A stretch of DNA of 39,788 nucleotides, taken from the NCBI GenBank assembly GCA_021162785.1, contig JAGGYA010000003.1, forward strand, positions 1 through 39,788, in the 5' to 3' direction. Under the pieces are notes generated by a model that was not told the DNA's origin, did not search any database, and saw only the letters and a list, made by a program, of their open reading frames with translations. Source of the stretch: Candidatus Calescibacteriota bacterium (GTDB lineage Bacteria > CAIJMQ01 > JAADFP01). Positions 21,473 to 33,951 of this stretch are shown here, piece by piece (the stretch's first letter is position 1; every line of letters starts with the position of its first letter). The translations under genes were made by a program, and so were the position numbers.

Positions 21473-21762
21473 GGCTCCGGTGGCCGTGCTACACGGGGAG
21501 GTAGCGGTGCCCTGTACCTGCAATCCGCTATAGCAGGGTGGAATTCCTCTCCCGAGGCTGGTTCTTTCTTCAGAAACGGCCTGGATAAGGGATGTTGAAG
21601 GCTGGATCCTGTGCACTGAAGGGCTACGAACCCCGCCAGGCCCGGAAGGGAGCAACGGTAAGTAGTTCCTTCAGGTGCTGCAGGGTAGTCTGGCTGGAGT
21701 CACCTGTCCGGGTACGCCTGGGGGAAGAGGTCGACGGAGAGGTGCACGGCCACCGGATCCCT
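21473..21762 (+). ncRNA. ffs: Signal recognition particle RNA, long bacterial form with Alu domain
   Basis: The 5' sequence TCCGGTGGCCGTGC (21476-21489) is perfectly complementary to GCACGGCCACCGGA (21744-21757), closing a rod-like RNA of about 290 nucleotides. The 5' part holds the Alu-domain landmarks GGGGAGGTAGCGG and CCTGCAATCCGCTATAGC. The apical S-domain has CCCGGAAGGG (GGAA tetraloop at 21644-21647) and the flanking AGCAACGG, where Ffh binds. This is the large Alu-containing type, not the short 4.5S RNA. It sits between tRNA-Ser and dnaX, a common arrangement. Exact ends are approximate. Confidence 0.93.
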
Positions 21763-23494: not shown

Positions 23495-24070
23495 ATGTAT
23501 CCTGAAAGTTTTCAGGAAGTTGTTGTTTTTCTCTCCAAATTACCGGGTTTAGGACCACGCAGTGGAGAAAGAATAGCTTTTCATTTATTTAAGTGCGGGG
23601 AAATAGAAAAATTTGCTACCCTTCTCCTTAAGTTAAAGGAAAGGGTTAAATTCTGCTCGCAGTGTCGAAATCTCACTGAAGAAGACCCCTGTAAAATCTG
23701 CCGAGATCCAGAGAGAGATTCTTCTTTACTTCTAATTGTGGAAGAGCCCTCTCAGTTAGAAGTAATTGAGAACTCCAAAGAATATAAAGGAAAGTATTTT
23801 GTTTTAGGTAGTAAAATTTCACCTTGGGAAGGGGAAAAACCCCAGGAACTCCCTTTGAAAGAGATGGAAGAGATTCTTAGAGAAAGAAAAGTGAAGGAAG
23901 TGATCTTAGGTGTGAATGAAGAATTAACCGCTCTTTTCCTGAAAGATTTTTTGAAAAAGTTTCCCCTAAAAATCACACGATTGGGAAGGGGTATACCTGT
24001 AGGTGCAAGGATTGAATATGTAGATGAAGCTACAATTAGAGAAGCTTTAAGAAATCGGAGTGAGCTATGA
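23495..24070 (+). CDS. recR: Recombination mediator RecR
   Basis: RecR works with RecO in RecA loading at gaps. The 191-aa protein has the N-terminal helix-hairpin-helix ([17 protein letters not shown]), the zinc finger [16 protein letters not shown], and the Toprim domain (LLIVEEP, then the later VILGVNEE). ATG 23495 is five bases after the ybaB stop; the frame extends upstream inside ybaB, but [18 protein letters not shown] is the standard N-terminus. It overlaps the V-ATPase A gene as ATGA. Confidence 0.95.
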
Positions 24071-25818
24071 AAGGGAAAATTGTCAGAGTCGCAGGTCCTT
24101 TAGTGATTGCCCGGGGTATTCCGGGTGCTAAGATGTATGATGTGGTAAGAGTGGGGAATGCAGGTCTTGTAGGAGAGATTATTGAATTAAAAGGGGATGA
24201 AGCCTCCATTCAAGTCTATGAAAATACATCTGGAATTGGCCCGGGTGAGCCTGTAATCACCACTGGCGCACCTCTCAGTGTGGAATTAGGCCCTGGACTC
24301 CTTACTTCAATATTTGATGGTATTCAGAGACCACTGGATGTAATGAGAGAAAAAGTAGGAGATTTTATAACTCGGGGATTGGATATACCCCCTTTGTCTC
24401 GGGAGAAAAAATGGGATTTTGAACCTGCAGTTAAAGAGGGCGAGGAAATAGGAGAAGGAGATATTTTAGGAGAGGTTCAGGAGACTAAATATATAAGACA
24501 CAGGATACTCGTCCCCCCTGGAATTAAAGGGAAAGTCAGAAAAATAAGAGGTGGTTCCTTCACCATTGAGGAAGAAATTGCAGTCATAAAAACTGATGAT
24601 GGGAAAGAAACATCTCTCACTATGCTTCAAAAATGGCCGGTTAGGAGACCCCGACCTTTTAAGAAGAAACTTCCTCCCGAAAAAATACTTATCACAGGGC
24701 AAAGGGTAATAGATGCTTTCTTCCCCCTTGCAAAAGGGGGAACAGCCTGTGTTCCAGGGCCGTTTGGTTCAGGGAAAACTGTATTACAACATCAATTGGC
24801 TAAATGGAGCGATGCTCACATCATCATCTACATAGGATGTGGCGAGAGGGGAAATGAAATGGCTTCAGTGCTTCTTGAATTTCCTGAATTGGAGGATCCC
24901 TACACAGGAGAACCTCTTATAAATAGGACAGTTCTTATTGCCAATACATCTAATATGCCCGTAGCTGCTCGAGAAGCTTCTATATATACCGGGGTGACAA
25001 TTGCAGAGTATTTCAGAGACATGGGTTATAATGTTGCGGTGATGGCTGATTCTACTTCCCGCTGGGCAGAAGCATTAAGAGAAATATCCGGTAGGCTGGA
25101 AGAAATGCCTGGAGAGGAAGGATATCCAGCCTATCTTCCTCAAAGAGTGGCTGAATTTTATGAAAGAGCAGGTAGAGTAATATGCATAGGGAAAGATGGT
25201 AGGGAAGGGACACTATCAATAATTGGTGCTGTCTCTCCTCCAGGTGGTGATCTTTCAGATCCTGTAGTCCAGGCAACGCTGAAAGTGGTGAAAGTTTTTT
25301 GGTCCTTGGAGGATTGGTTAGCTTACCGGAGACATTTTCCTGCAATTAATTGGCTTACCAGTTATTCCTTATATGTGGAGAATCTGGAAAGTTATTTGAA
25401 GAAAGAAATAGCAGAAGACTGGCTAAACTTGAGGAAAGAAGCACTAAAAATCCTTGAGAAAGAAGCAGATCTTCAAGAAATTGTGAGGTTAGTAGGGGTA
25501 GAGAGTCTATCTCCTAAGGATCGCCTACTTTTAGAGACTGCTCGGTCAATTAGAGAAGATTTCTTGCACCAAAATGCTTTTGACCCTGTGGATACCTATT
25601 CGCCTTTGAAGAAACAGTATCTTATGCTGAAAATTGTTTTAGAATTCCATCATCAACTCATTAAATTACTGGAAGAAGGGAAAGATATTCAAGATTTACT
25701 TTCTCACCCTCTTAGAGAGGAGATTGCCAGGATGAGATATGTAAAAAATGAAGATGAGAAGACTTTATCTGACCTTTTGGAAAGAGTAAGAAAAATAGGA
25801 GAAGTAGCCCATGTTTAA
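24067..25818 (+). CDS. ntpA: V/A-type ATP synthase/ATPase catalytic subunit A
   Basis: This is the catalytic nucleotide-binding subunit of the V1/A1 head. The 583-aa length is standard. The N-terminal [17 protein letters not shown] is followed by the non-homologous insert typical of A subunits, the P-loop GPFGSGKT (about 231-238), [12 protein letters not shown] and the [29 protein letters not shown] block broken over the catalytic Glu and Arg. It is complete. It overlaps recR by four bases and subunit B by eight. The usual partner genes (D, E, C, F, I, K) are not in this window. Confidence 0.96.
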
Positions 25819-27208
25819 AGAATATCTTACGGTAAGGGAAATCTCTGGTCCATTGGTATTGGTGGAAGAAGTAGAGGGTGTGAAATATGATGAACTGATA
25901 GAAATAACTGCACCGGATGGTAGTTTGAGAAGAGGAAGGGTTCTGGAGGTTCATGAGGATAAAGCACTGGTGCAGTTGTTTGAAGGAGCAACGGGTATTG
26001 ATATCTACCGCACAAGAGTTCGCTTCTTAGGGAGGGGAATTGAAATTGGTTTGAGCTTGGATATGCTGGGAAGAGTTTTTGATGGAATGGGAAGGGTGAG
26101 GGATGATGGCCCTCCTATAATTCCAGAAATAACCTTGGATATCAATGGAAGTCCGATAAATCCTTATTCACGGGATTATCCCTCTGAGTTTATTCAAACA
26201 GGTATCTCTGCAATTGATGGTTTAAATACATTGGTTAGAGGACAGAAACTCCCTATCTTTTCTGGCTCAGGACTTCCCCATGCCCGTGTAGCTGCTCAGA
26301 TTGTAAGACAGGCAAAGGTTCTGGGTAAAGAAGAGAAATTTGCTGTAGTTTTTGCTGGTATGGGGATAACCTTTGAAGAAGCTGACTTTTTTCTTAAAAG
26401 TTTTGAGAAAGGAGTGGCTCTTTCCCGCACGGTAGTTTTTCTCAATCTTGCTGATGACCCTTCTATTGAAAGAATAGCTACTCCTCGGGTTGCTTTGACC
26501 TGTGCTGAATATTTAGCTTTTTACAAGGATATGCATGTCCTGGTTATTCTTCTGGATATGACCAATTACTGTGAAGCCCTAAGGGAAATTTCAGCTGCAA
26601 GGAAAGAAGTTCCAGGGAGACGGGGGTATCCAGGATACATGTATACAGACTTAGCCAGTATTTATGAAAGAGCAGGAAGGATAAAAGGGAAAAAAGGTTC
26701 AATAACTCAAATGCCAATTCTTACTATGCCTGAAGACGACAAAACACATCCCATTCCTGACCTTACAGGATACATTACTGAGGGACAGATAATCCTTTCT
26801 CGTTCCCTCCATCGAAAGGGTATTTACCCTCCTATCGATGTATTGCCTTCCCTTTCCCGTTTAAAAGACAGAGGAATTGGAAAAGGGAAGACAAGAGAAG
26901 ACCATGCGGATCTTTTCAATCAGCTTTTCTCTGCCTATGCCCATGGAAAAGAGGTTCAGGAATTAGCAGTAATCCTGGGAGAGGAATCCTTAAGCGAGTT
27001 AGACCGTATTTACTACAAATTCGCTGAGATTTTTGAGGAAGTCTATGTAAATCAAGGTGAATATGAAGAAAGAAGTATTGAAGAAACTTTAGATCTTGGC
27101 TGGAAACTCTTAACACTCTTACCTCAGTCTGAGCTTAAAAGGGTGAGACCAGAATTTATAGAAAAATACCTACCCAAGGAGAAATTTACTCCAGAAAGAG
27201 GTGGGTAA
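25811..27208 (+). CDS. ntpB: V/A-type ATP synthase/ATPase subunit B
   Basis: This is the non-catalytic nucleotide-binding subunit that alternates with A in the hexameric head. The 465-aa protein starts with [20 protein letters not shown] and has [14 protein letters not shown] in place of a P-loop, then [33 protein letters not shown] split across the conserved helix, and [18 protein letters not shown]. These identify B rather than A. Subunit D normally follows B, but here an acyl-CoA-synthetase-like gene starts nine bases later. Confidence 0.96.
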
Positions 27209-30913: not shown

Positions 30914-31786
30914 TTGAGAGAAATAGAGATTTTAGCTCCTGCAAAGGTAAACCTTTTTTTAGAAGCAAAGTTTAAAAGAGATGATGGATATTGGGAGGTG
31001 GAGACTATTCTTCAAACTATAGATGTATGTGACCGAATTATACTTAAAAAGGCACCTCATTTCCAATTTGAATGTAATCGAAAGGAGCTGGAAACCAAAG
31101 ATAATTTAGTAGTGCAAGCATTTAAAATAATGCAGGAGAAATTCAAGATGAAAGAGGGAATCAAAATAATTCTGGAGAAAAAAATACCCGTGGGAGCAGG
31201 ATTAGGGGGTGGAAGCAGTGATGCTGCTGCTACCATAAAGGGGATTAACCTTCTTTACGGTATGGAAATAGAGAAAAAAGTATTAGAGGAGATTGCCTCT
31301 TCTTTGGGTTCAGATGTTAATTTTTTCCTTTACGGAGGAACATGTTTGGGAAAAGGGCGAGGAGAGAGAATAACACCTTTATCTTCTTTGCCATCTTGGG
31401 AGATTTTTTTAATCTTCTTTCCCTTCCCAGTTTATACCCGCCAGATTTATTCTAAATTAAAAGTTCCTTCAGTTATCCATTCCTCCCAACCTTTGATCAA
31501 AGCAATTGAGGAGAAAGATCGAGAAAAGGTTAAGAAAAACCTTTTTAACAGACTAACCGGAATTGTAGAAAATATTTACCCAGATATAAGAAGAATAAGA
31601 AGAAATTTAGAGCAAAGGAAAATAAAGAGTATAGTGAGTGGTTCAGGTCCCACTGTTTATGGTATATTAAATCATCCAGACGAAAAAGAAGTTCTACTTC
31701 ATCTTATGAAGGAAGAAAAAGGTCAAGTAATTTTTTCTCAGTTCCTTTCTTTTTCAGATAAAGGAGGTGCGAATGGAAGTAACTGA
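30914..31786 (+). CDS. ispE: 4-diphosphocytidyl-2-C-methyl-D-erythritol kinase IspE
   Basis: IspE phosphorylates CDP-methylerythritol in the non-mevalonate isoprenoid pathway. The 290-aa GHMP kinase has APAKVNLFL at the N-terminus, the glycine-rich PVGAGLGGGSSDAA, LGSDVNFFLYGG and the C-terminal VSGSGPTVYG. It starts at TTG 30914, directly before the conserved IEILAPAKVN. It overlaps spoVG by 14 bases; ispE-spoVG adjacency is also seen in Firmicutes. Confidence 0.95.
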   Translation: MREIEILAPAKVNLFLEAKFKRDDGYWEVETILQTIDVCDRIILKKAPHFQFECNRKELETKDNLVVQAFKIMQEKFKMKEGIKIILEKKIPVGAGLGGGSSDAAATIKGINLLYGMEIEKKVLEEIASSLGSDVNFFLYGGTCLGKGRGERITPLSSLPSWEIFLIFFPFPVYTRQIYSKLKVPSVIHSSQPLIKAIEEKDREKVKKNLFNRLTGIVENIYPDIRRIRRNLEQRKIKSIVSGSGPTVYGILNHPDEKEVLLHLMKEEKGQVIFSQFLSFSDKGGANGSN

Positions 31787-32147
31787 TGTAAAGATAAAAC
31801 TCGTCTCTAAGAAAAGAGAAAAAGTTAAAGCGGTAGCTACAGTCACTTTTGATAACTGCTTTGTTGTAAGGAACATAAAACTTATTGAAGGGAATAATGG
31901 ACTTTTTGTAGCAATGCCAGCAGAAGAAGTAAAGAAAACATGTCCCCAATGTTCTTCCCGGATACCTATCTCTTGTAGATTTTGCCCAAGATGTGGAGCT
32001 CACTTAGGAGATACTCCTACCCAGTTCAGGTCTACGACAAGGGATCTGGCTCATCCTATTAATCAGGAAATGCGGAAGTACTTAACGGAGAAAGTCATCG
32101 CTGCATACCAGGAAAAACTCAATGGCACTCCTTCTTCCCCAAAGTAG
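31773..32147 (+). CDS. spoVG: SpoVG-like regulator with inserted zinc ribbon
   Basis: The 124-aa protein is SpoVG at both ends: MEVTDVKIKLV at the start, VVRNIKLIEG and LFVAMPAEEV, then the conserved RDLAHPIN (90-97) and a C-terminal helix. Between MPAEEV and RDLAHPIN, where ordinary SpoVG has only about ten residues, it has a cysteine-rich insert: C57PQC60, then C68RFC71PRC74, a likely zinc ribbon. SpoVG binds DNA or RNA and acts as a pleiotropic regulator also in non-sporulating bacteria. ATG 31773 has AAGGAGG (31761-31767) five bases upstream, better than GTG 31767. No sporulation gene is nearby. Confidence 0.9.
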   Translation: MEVTDVKIKLVSKKREKVKAVATVTFDNCFVVRNIKLIEGNNGLFVAMPAEEVKKTCPQCSSRIPISCRFCPRCGAHLGDTPTQFRSTTRDLAHPINQEMRKYLTEKVIAAYQEKLNGTPSSPK

Positions 32148-32151
32148 TGAG

Positions 32152-33597
32152 ATGGCTCGAATAGTGGTGGCAAATTCTATTGGGGTTGATGAAGAAGGAT
32201 ACTACATAATCCATTCCCCATCCCGTTGGTCATCCGGCGTAAAAAAAGAGAATCATTTTACTTATTATCCTTGGGAATTAGCTTATCTTTCCTCCCTTTT
32301 AAAAAAGAAAACAGACCATCAGGTGAAATTTGTAGATGGCAATCTCAACAGATGGAATTGGAAAAGACTTGCTGATGAAATCTGCCAATTTTCTCCCCAT
32401 TTTCTCATCATGGAACCATCAACTCGCACCATTTTAGATGACCTGAAATGTATTAAAAAAGTGAAAAAGGAAACAGGAAGCAAAATAATTTTGGTGGGGC
32501 AACATGCTTCTGCCCTTCCGGAATGGGTAAAAACAGAAGGAGCTGATTATGTTGTAATAGGTGAGTATGAGAAGCCACTTCTCAGATTTTTCCAAGGGGA
32601 GGGAGTAGAAAAAATCCCCGGATTTTATCCAAATCCACCGAAAGAACTGATTGATCTTGATGAACTTCCTTTTCCTGAAGATGAAGATGTTCAAAGAATT
32701 GCTTATGGAATACCTGGGGAGCCATCTTCTGATTACTTAGAGATCCAGGCTTATGCCTCCCGTGGGTGTTGGAGGTCCTGTTCTTTCTGCGTTGCACGAC
32801 ACATATACTATCGCAAACCCCTCTGGAGAAAGAGGGGTATCCAAAAAATCATTGAGGAGATAAAGTATTTGAAAAAGAAGTACCCCCAAATGCAGGGAAT
32901 ATTTTTTGATGAAGAATGTCACAATGGGAGTGAGGAATTTATTTTAGAACTTAGTAAAGCCATTATTGAAAACAGATTAAATAAATTGAAGTTTGAAGCA
33001 ATGTGCGATGTGGGTTTCCTTAATAAAAAGATATTAGAAGCCATGAAAGAAGCAGGATATTATCAAATTAGAGTGGGGATTGAAAGTGCAAGTGAAAAAG
33101 TTCTTAAAGGAATGAATAAAAAAATAGAAATCCATAAAGTGATAAAGGTTTTAAAAACGGCTAAAGATTTAAACTTTCTTACTTATGGAACCTTTATCGT
33201 GGGTGGCCCTCTTTCCACGAAGGAAGAGGATATGAAAACTCTGGAATTAATGAAATATCTTCTTATGGAAGGTTATTTAGATAAACTCCAAGTCTCTATC
33301 CTTACCCCCTTTCCAGGCACACCTTTTTATAAATGGGTGAAAGAAAAAGGATATCTCCTACCTGTGGAATTCTGGCAGTTTGACGGAGAAAACTTTGCAG
33401 TTGTTTCCTATCCCAATTATTCTTCCTCACAAATTAAAAAAATGAAAGAGAAAATGTTAAAAGAAAGAGATAGATTGATTTTAAAAATGAGGATAAAAAA
33501 AGGTGAATTTCTCAGCTGGGTCAAGGATAGATTCCATAAATACGGTTTTATAGGTGGGGTAAAAAAAGGAGTAGTAAGAATTTTAAAAACACTTTAA
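32152..33597 (+). CDS. B12-binding-domain radical SAM protein, second member
   Basis: The protein is 481 aa from ATG 32152. It has a cobalamin-domain-like N-terminus (about 1-180; WELAYLSSLLKKKT, ILVGQHASALPEW) and a radical SAM core with CWRSCSFC (CX3CX2C). The core also shows IFFDEECHNGSEEFIL, the GIESASEKVLKGMNK segment and a TPFPGTPFY motif. This places it with B12-type radical SAM proteins that act on lipids, cofactors or natural products; the substrate is unknown. An alternative ATG at 32122 lies within spoVG. Its 3' end overlaps the DUF123 gene by 15 bases. Confidence 0.85.
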   Translation: MARIVVANSIGVDEEGYYIIHSPSRWSSGVKKENHFTYYPWELAYLSSLLKKKTDHQVKFVDGNLNRWNWKRLADEICQFSPHFLIMEPSTRTILDDLKCIKKVKKETGSKIILVGQHASALPEWVKTEGADYVVIGEYEKPLLRFFQGEGVEKIPGFYPNPPKELIDLDELPFPEDEDVQRIAYGIPGEPSSDYLEIQAYASRGCWRSCSFCVARHIYYRKPLWRKRGIQKIIEEIKYLKKKYPQMQGIFFDEECHNGSEEFILELSKAIIENRLNKLKFEAMCDVGFLNKKILEAMKEAGYYQIRVGIESASEKVLKGMNKKIEIHKVIKVLKTAKDLNFLTYGTFIVGGPLSTKEEDMKTLELMKYLLMEGYLDKLQVSILTPFPGTPFYKWVKEKGYLLPVEFWQFDGENFAVVSYPNYSSSQIKKMKEKMLKERDRLILKMRIKKGEFLSWVKDRFHKYGFIGGVKKGVVRILKTL

Positions 33598-33951
33598 TTC
33601 AGAAATATAGAAAAGATGACCCCTACATTTACAGTCCGTCGCACCGAAATTTTCTACAACCCGGAATCTCTCCCCAAGCAAATTTGATACTTCGCATTCT
33701 CCTCTTTCTCCACAATTAAAAAGGAAGGCAAACTCTAAACATGCTTTCTCCAGAAGAAAATCTATATGCCATTTCTTCCTCTTATTCTTTCTAAAATGGC
33801 GATCCACTCGCTTTTCCATATGTTTCATACCACTTCCCACATATACATACCATCCTGCTGGAAAGAACTTCTCCCATCTTTTTCCATATTTAAGTTTGCT
33901 GGGATTATCTTTACGAATGAAAAGGAGGTAAAAACCTTTAAAATTACTCAC
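33583..33951 (-). CDS. GIY-YIG nuclease-fold protein, DUF123 family
   Basis: This 122-aa protein matches the small DUF123/GIY-YIG family. It has the opening GFYLLFI, the core FPAGWYVYVGSGMKHMEKR, WHIDFLLEK, and the late FGATDCKCRGHLFY with paired cysteines. In other genomes this domain can be fused to endonuclease III, which hints at a nucleic-acid role; the substrate is unknown. It starts at GTG 33951, overlapping the end of the ABC ATPase gene by 8 bases without its own ribosome site, so translation is coupled. It converges with the radical SAM gene. Confidence 0.85.
   Translation of the reverse strand: MSNFKGFYLLFIRKDNPSKLKYGKRWEKFFPAGWYVYVGSGMKHMEKRVDRHFRKNKRKKWHIDFLLEKACLEFAFLFNCGERGECEVSNLLGERFRVVENFGATDCKCRGHLFYISELKCF

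Follow-up and report, generated by a model that had tools for sequence, protein, structure and literature searches.

The window, by which we mean the whole stretch of 39,788 nucleotides that was analysed (Candidatus Calescibacteriota bacterium, contig JAGGYA010000003.1), carries a spoVG gene that directly follows ispE and whose product is interrupted by an insert of the zinc-ribbon type. The features of this locus are the following:

30914 to 31786, plus strand: ispE (TIGR00154, 211.5 bits), the conserved neighbour, with a 14-nt overlap with the start of spoVG.
31762 to 31767, plus strand: Shine-Dalgarno sequence AGGAGG for spoVG, located within the end of ispE (from the sequence).
31773 to 32147, plus strand: spoVG, 124 aa, with the zinc-ribbon insert (PF04026, 97.6 bits; the AF2 core matches 2i9z).
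31917 to 31928, plus strand: MP-A-EE strand, residues 49-52, in which EE occupies the position of the basic doublet of studied SpoVG proteins (alignment; PMC3688583).
31941 to 31994, plus strand: predicted zinc ribbon core, C57-X2-C60-X10-C71-X2-C74 (cysteines invariant in 77/77 sequences; Pfam zinc-ribbon matches).
31995 to 32042, plus strand: remainder of the insert, consisting of the end of the ribbon and a variable linker that leads into RDLAHP of the SpoVG core (alignment).

The spoVG reading frame is open on the plus strand from ATG 31773 through the stop codon at 32145-32147, and a strong AGGAGG Shine-Dalgarno sequence lies 5 nt 5' of this ATG. The first start proposed by the ORF tool, GTG 31767, overlaps the Shine-Dalgarno sequence and therefore ATG 31773 is the likely start, in agreement with the extent given for the gene in an earlier note on this DNA. 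In all 10 loci tested, which belong to both the phylum of the window and Planctomycetota, the gene immediately 5' of the ribbon-bearing spoVG is ispE; this conserved neighbour argues for orthology and vertical descent. In Bacillus, too, ispE is near spoVG. A B12-binding radical SAM gene (32122-33597) is found directly downstream of spoVG, with a listed start that overlaps the spoVG end, and a similar gene is located downstream of spoVG in two family relatives of the window (L003 and L008).

The protein encoded at this locus is a member of the SpoVG family. Its residues 1-114 match PF04026 with 97.6 bits against a cut-off of 29.6, the model is covered in full (1-82 of 82) and the insert appears as a gap. 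The protein falls outside the NCBIfam SpoVG equivalog NF009749, for which it scores 93 bits, below the cut-off of 108, in a match that the insert interrupts. The AF2 model of the window protein has the beta-sheet core and the C-terminal helix of the SpoVG fold; its top PDB matches are ten SpoVG chains, and the comparison with 2i9z_B gave an E value of 1.6e-6 and a TM score of 0.89 normalised by the target. The SpoVG identity claimed by the earlier note is thus well supported by the profile score and the fold. The PDB chains align to window residues 1-52 and then again from residue 89. Compared with the SpoVG proteins of Bacillus, Staphylococcus, Listeria and Borrelia (PF04026; 2i9x, 2i9z, 2ia9), the window protein has the same core, the same fold and the same GLFVAMP and AHPI motifs, but differs from them by an insert of about 36 aa in the hairpin turn.

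In the alignment this insert follows the MPAEE strand and occupies the region of residues 53-90. It contains two conserved cysteine pairs, C57-PQ-C60 and C71-PR-C74, and residues 52-78 are matched by the Pfam families UPF0547, DZR and Zn_Ribbon_1 with E values from 4.5e-6 to 7e-5, just under the curated cut-offs. The scores were 27.1 bits against a cut-off of 29 for UPF0547 (PF10571) and 24.9 bits against 27.3 for DZR (PF12773), and the DZR model also matches 10 of 11 relatives. These two families and Zn_Ribbon_1 (PF13240) share with the insert the CX2C-X10-CX2C spacing with a CG tail (E about 1e-4 to 1e-6); unlike them, the window ribbon sits inside a compact regulator fold. From its sequence, the insert would work like a zinc ribbon while being a formal member of neither UPF0547 nor DZR.

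We compared the cysteines of 77 distinct sequences that have the ribbon. All 77 contain C57, C60, C71 and C74, and the CX2C-X10-CX2C spacing is exact in 75 of them; in the other two (L117 and L138) the first cysteine pair is CX4C or CX1C. G75 is replaced in a single sequence, and a single sequence has a residue other than K or R at position 63. The four cysteines are conserved to the same degree as the core positions F45, A47-P49, H94-P95 and R101, while the linker beside them, of about 15 residues and variable in length, varies freely. A chance occurrence of the cysteine motif is ruled out by the 77/77 conservation. The same contrast, between four invariant cysteines in diverged sequences and an adjoining linker that varies freely, speaks against a neutral, lineage-specific insertion without function, a reading that would suit the previous description of the insert as a taxonomic signature only (PMC3444138); we hold it to be extremely improbable.

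The invariant cysteines and the Pfam matches bear out the proposal of the earlier note that a zinc-ribbon-type insert lies inside SpoVG. Its spacing, CX2C-X7-CX2CX2C, has to be replaced by CX2C-X10-CX2C, since it counted C68, which is a cysteine in the window sequence alone among the 77. This also affects the suggestion that the cysteines sense redox state or metal and thereby switch the regulator. A cysteine-rich element adjoining a nucleic-acid-binding site and the presence of five cysteines in the window copy would fit such a sensor, but the fifth is the unconserved C68 and the other four make up an ordinary CX2C-X10-CX2C structural ribbon. The redox-sensor idea thus finds no support, and we consider a sensor very unlikely.

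The position of the insert is better understood from what is known of SpoVG binding. The SpoVG proteins of S. aureus and Borrelia cannot bind DNA without a basic doublet just after MPS (K50-R51 in S. aureus), and their sequence specificity is set by six consecutive residues in the C-terminal helix (PMC3688583). Listeria SpoVG binds RNA (PMC4959528). The insert starts directly after the doublet position, where it takes the place of the beta-hairpin turn, so that the location in the nucleic-acid-binding region given by the earlier note agrees with the position of K50-R51 (PMC3688583). The AF2 model of the window protein, a monomer without metal, places strands 50-52 and 89-91 at the borders of the insert with a pLDDT of 82.7. 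The corresponding model of a protein from Pirellulales (Planctomycetota), also a metal-free monomer, has the usual core and helix and places strands 50-52 and 94-96 at the same borders with a pLDDT of 88.3.

The doublet itself differs from that of the studied SpoVG proteins. Residues 51-52 (31923-31928) read EE in the window and two family relatives (3 distinct sequences), whereas the phylum's other family has RP here and most Planctomycetota have RK; the basic doublet, a functional feature that lies outside the PF04026 profile definition, is therefore absent from the window SpoVG. With EE in this place, the window's family could bind nucleic acid more weakly or no longer bind it. A KK or RK pair is found three residues beyond the EE in this family, which suggests that the side of the ribbon may do more of the binding there.

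The net charge of residues 51-78, compared among ribbon-bearing SpoVG proteins alone, is always basic, from +3 to +8 with a median of +5. This bears on the main rival of a nucleic-acid contact, in which the ribbon binds zinc yet serves stability, oligomerisation or the docking of a partner such as the ribosome, RNA polymerase or an RNase. A zinc ribbon can also stabilise a fold or contact another protein, and DZR-type ribbons frequently do the latter. The best ribbon-sized Foldseek matches include ubiquitin-binding NZF fingers (5af6), at E > 2, and the variable length of the linker fits a loosely attached module. The constant basic charge of the ribbon, +3 to +8, and its location at the DNA-binding hairpin weigh against this role, which we regard as possible, if rather unlikely.

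We favor a nucleic-acid contact as the probable explanation: the ispE-spoVG locus would encode a SpoVG with a structural zinc ribbon in the turn of the doublet hairpin, where it would enlarge the nucleic-acid-binding face. What the sequences establish directly is the gene and its insert, together with the conservation, position and charge of the latter; zinc binding and the contact itself are what we infer from them. A short CX2C-X10-CX2C ribbon with a variable linker would be built into the turn of the doublet-bearing beta-hairpin and would most likely bind one Zn2+. The ribbon would present a second, always basic surface beside the doublet and the C-terminal helix, and would in this way enlarge the DNA or RNA contact of a SpoVG-type regulator, whose regulatory role may be like that of the Firmicutes and Borrelia proteins. 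A larger share of the binding may fall to the ribbon side in the window's family.

The distribution of the insert was analyzed in the window's own phylum, Planctomycetota, Spirochaetota and Bacillota; Omnitrophota, Verrucomicrobiota and other PVC phyla lie outside this survey, and for the phylum of the delta-proteobacterial locus it comprised only 3 genomes. In the own phylum SpoVG is present in 5 of 7 genomes and all complete copies have the insert. The Planctomycetota sample gave a SpoVG match in 172 of 294 genomes, and among the matches listed all span 336-378 nt, the length with the insert, which is found in the same place and with the same cysteine spacing as in the window. None of the SpoVG matches in Spirochaetota (62/120 genomes) or Bacillota (106/150 genomes) has the insert, with spans of at most 261 nt. 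The named-genome scan ranked the own-phylum members first, then Planctomycetota with the insert, followed by Firmicutes, Mycoplasmatota, Spirochaetota and delta-proteobacterial SpoVG without it. The ribbon form is the normal SpoVG in Planctomycetota and one small candidate phylum. A one-off or artefact was rejected on its presence across the own phylum and Planctomycetota, and the possibility, allowed for in the earlier note, that the insert is unique to this sequence or absent in close relatives did not hold, as the alignment of homologues shows it in the relatives. Some Planctomycetota genomes (G122, G153, G070 and G023) have two to four SpoVG matches, and G122 and G153 each contain two divergent ribbon-bearing copies. 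A second SpoVG-like fragment from the same class, without the ribbon and without RDLAHP, is located at a contig edge (L006:1-201).

In a tree built from the core only, ribbon-bearing and ribbon-less SpoVG are split by one branch with a support of 99/96, and the own-phylum sequences fall outside the Planctomycetota group (96/75). A single gain of the insert is likely rather than certain from these sequences, since leaving out the columns of the hairpin lowers the support of the same branch to 67/90. We tentatively extend this to a reading that we judge unlikely: the basic zinc ribbon would have been gained only once, before the split of Planctomycetota and the candidate phylum, giving rise to a metal-dependent subclass of SpoVG, and in the window's family the ribbon would have taken over the nucleic-acid contact from the doublet, now EE.

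An insert of 32-36 aa in SpoVG was reported by Gupta et al. in 2012 as a signature of Planctomycetes only, absent elsewhere, and the text of that paper mentions neither zinc nor cysteine (PMC3444138). It concerns the same protein, an insert in a conserved region and a similar length, and the Planctomycetota inserts analyzed here are very probably identical with it. The window SpoVG has an insert of the signature type outside Planctomycetes, in an organism that the genome collection places in a separate small phylum, which differs from the restriction stated in that paper. Among open-licence full texts we found no paper that links SpoVG with a zinc ribbon (the one text that contains both terms names each of them once and deals with another subject than SpoVG), and PMC3444138 was the only one found on a SpoVG conserved signature indel. 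The insert itself is thus already published; what seems to be new, as far as the open-access literature goes, is its zinc-ribbon identity, its occurrence outside Planctomycetota and the EE doublet. SpoVG is a small, widespread bacterial regulator that binds DNA and RNA, and its binding mode is not settled; a natural, phylum-wide ribbon at the DNA-binding hairpin provides a ready test of which SpoVG surface binds. A taxonomic marker of Planctomycetes also gains a likely molecular meaning, and is not exclusive to them.

Elsewhere in the window, the genes for the A and B subunits of a V/A-type ATPase overlap each other (24067-27208), with neighbours that are not like further subunits. A bacterial large SRP RNA (21484-21749, 195.6 bits) adjoins a tRNA gene and lies ahead of dnaX-like, YbaB-like and recR-like genes, and a DUF123 protein is encoded at 33583-33951 on the minus strand (86.9 bits).
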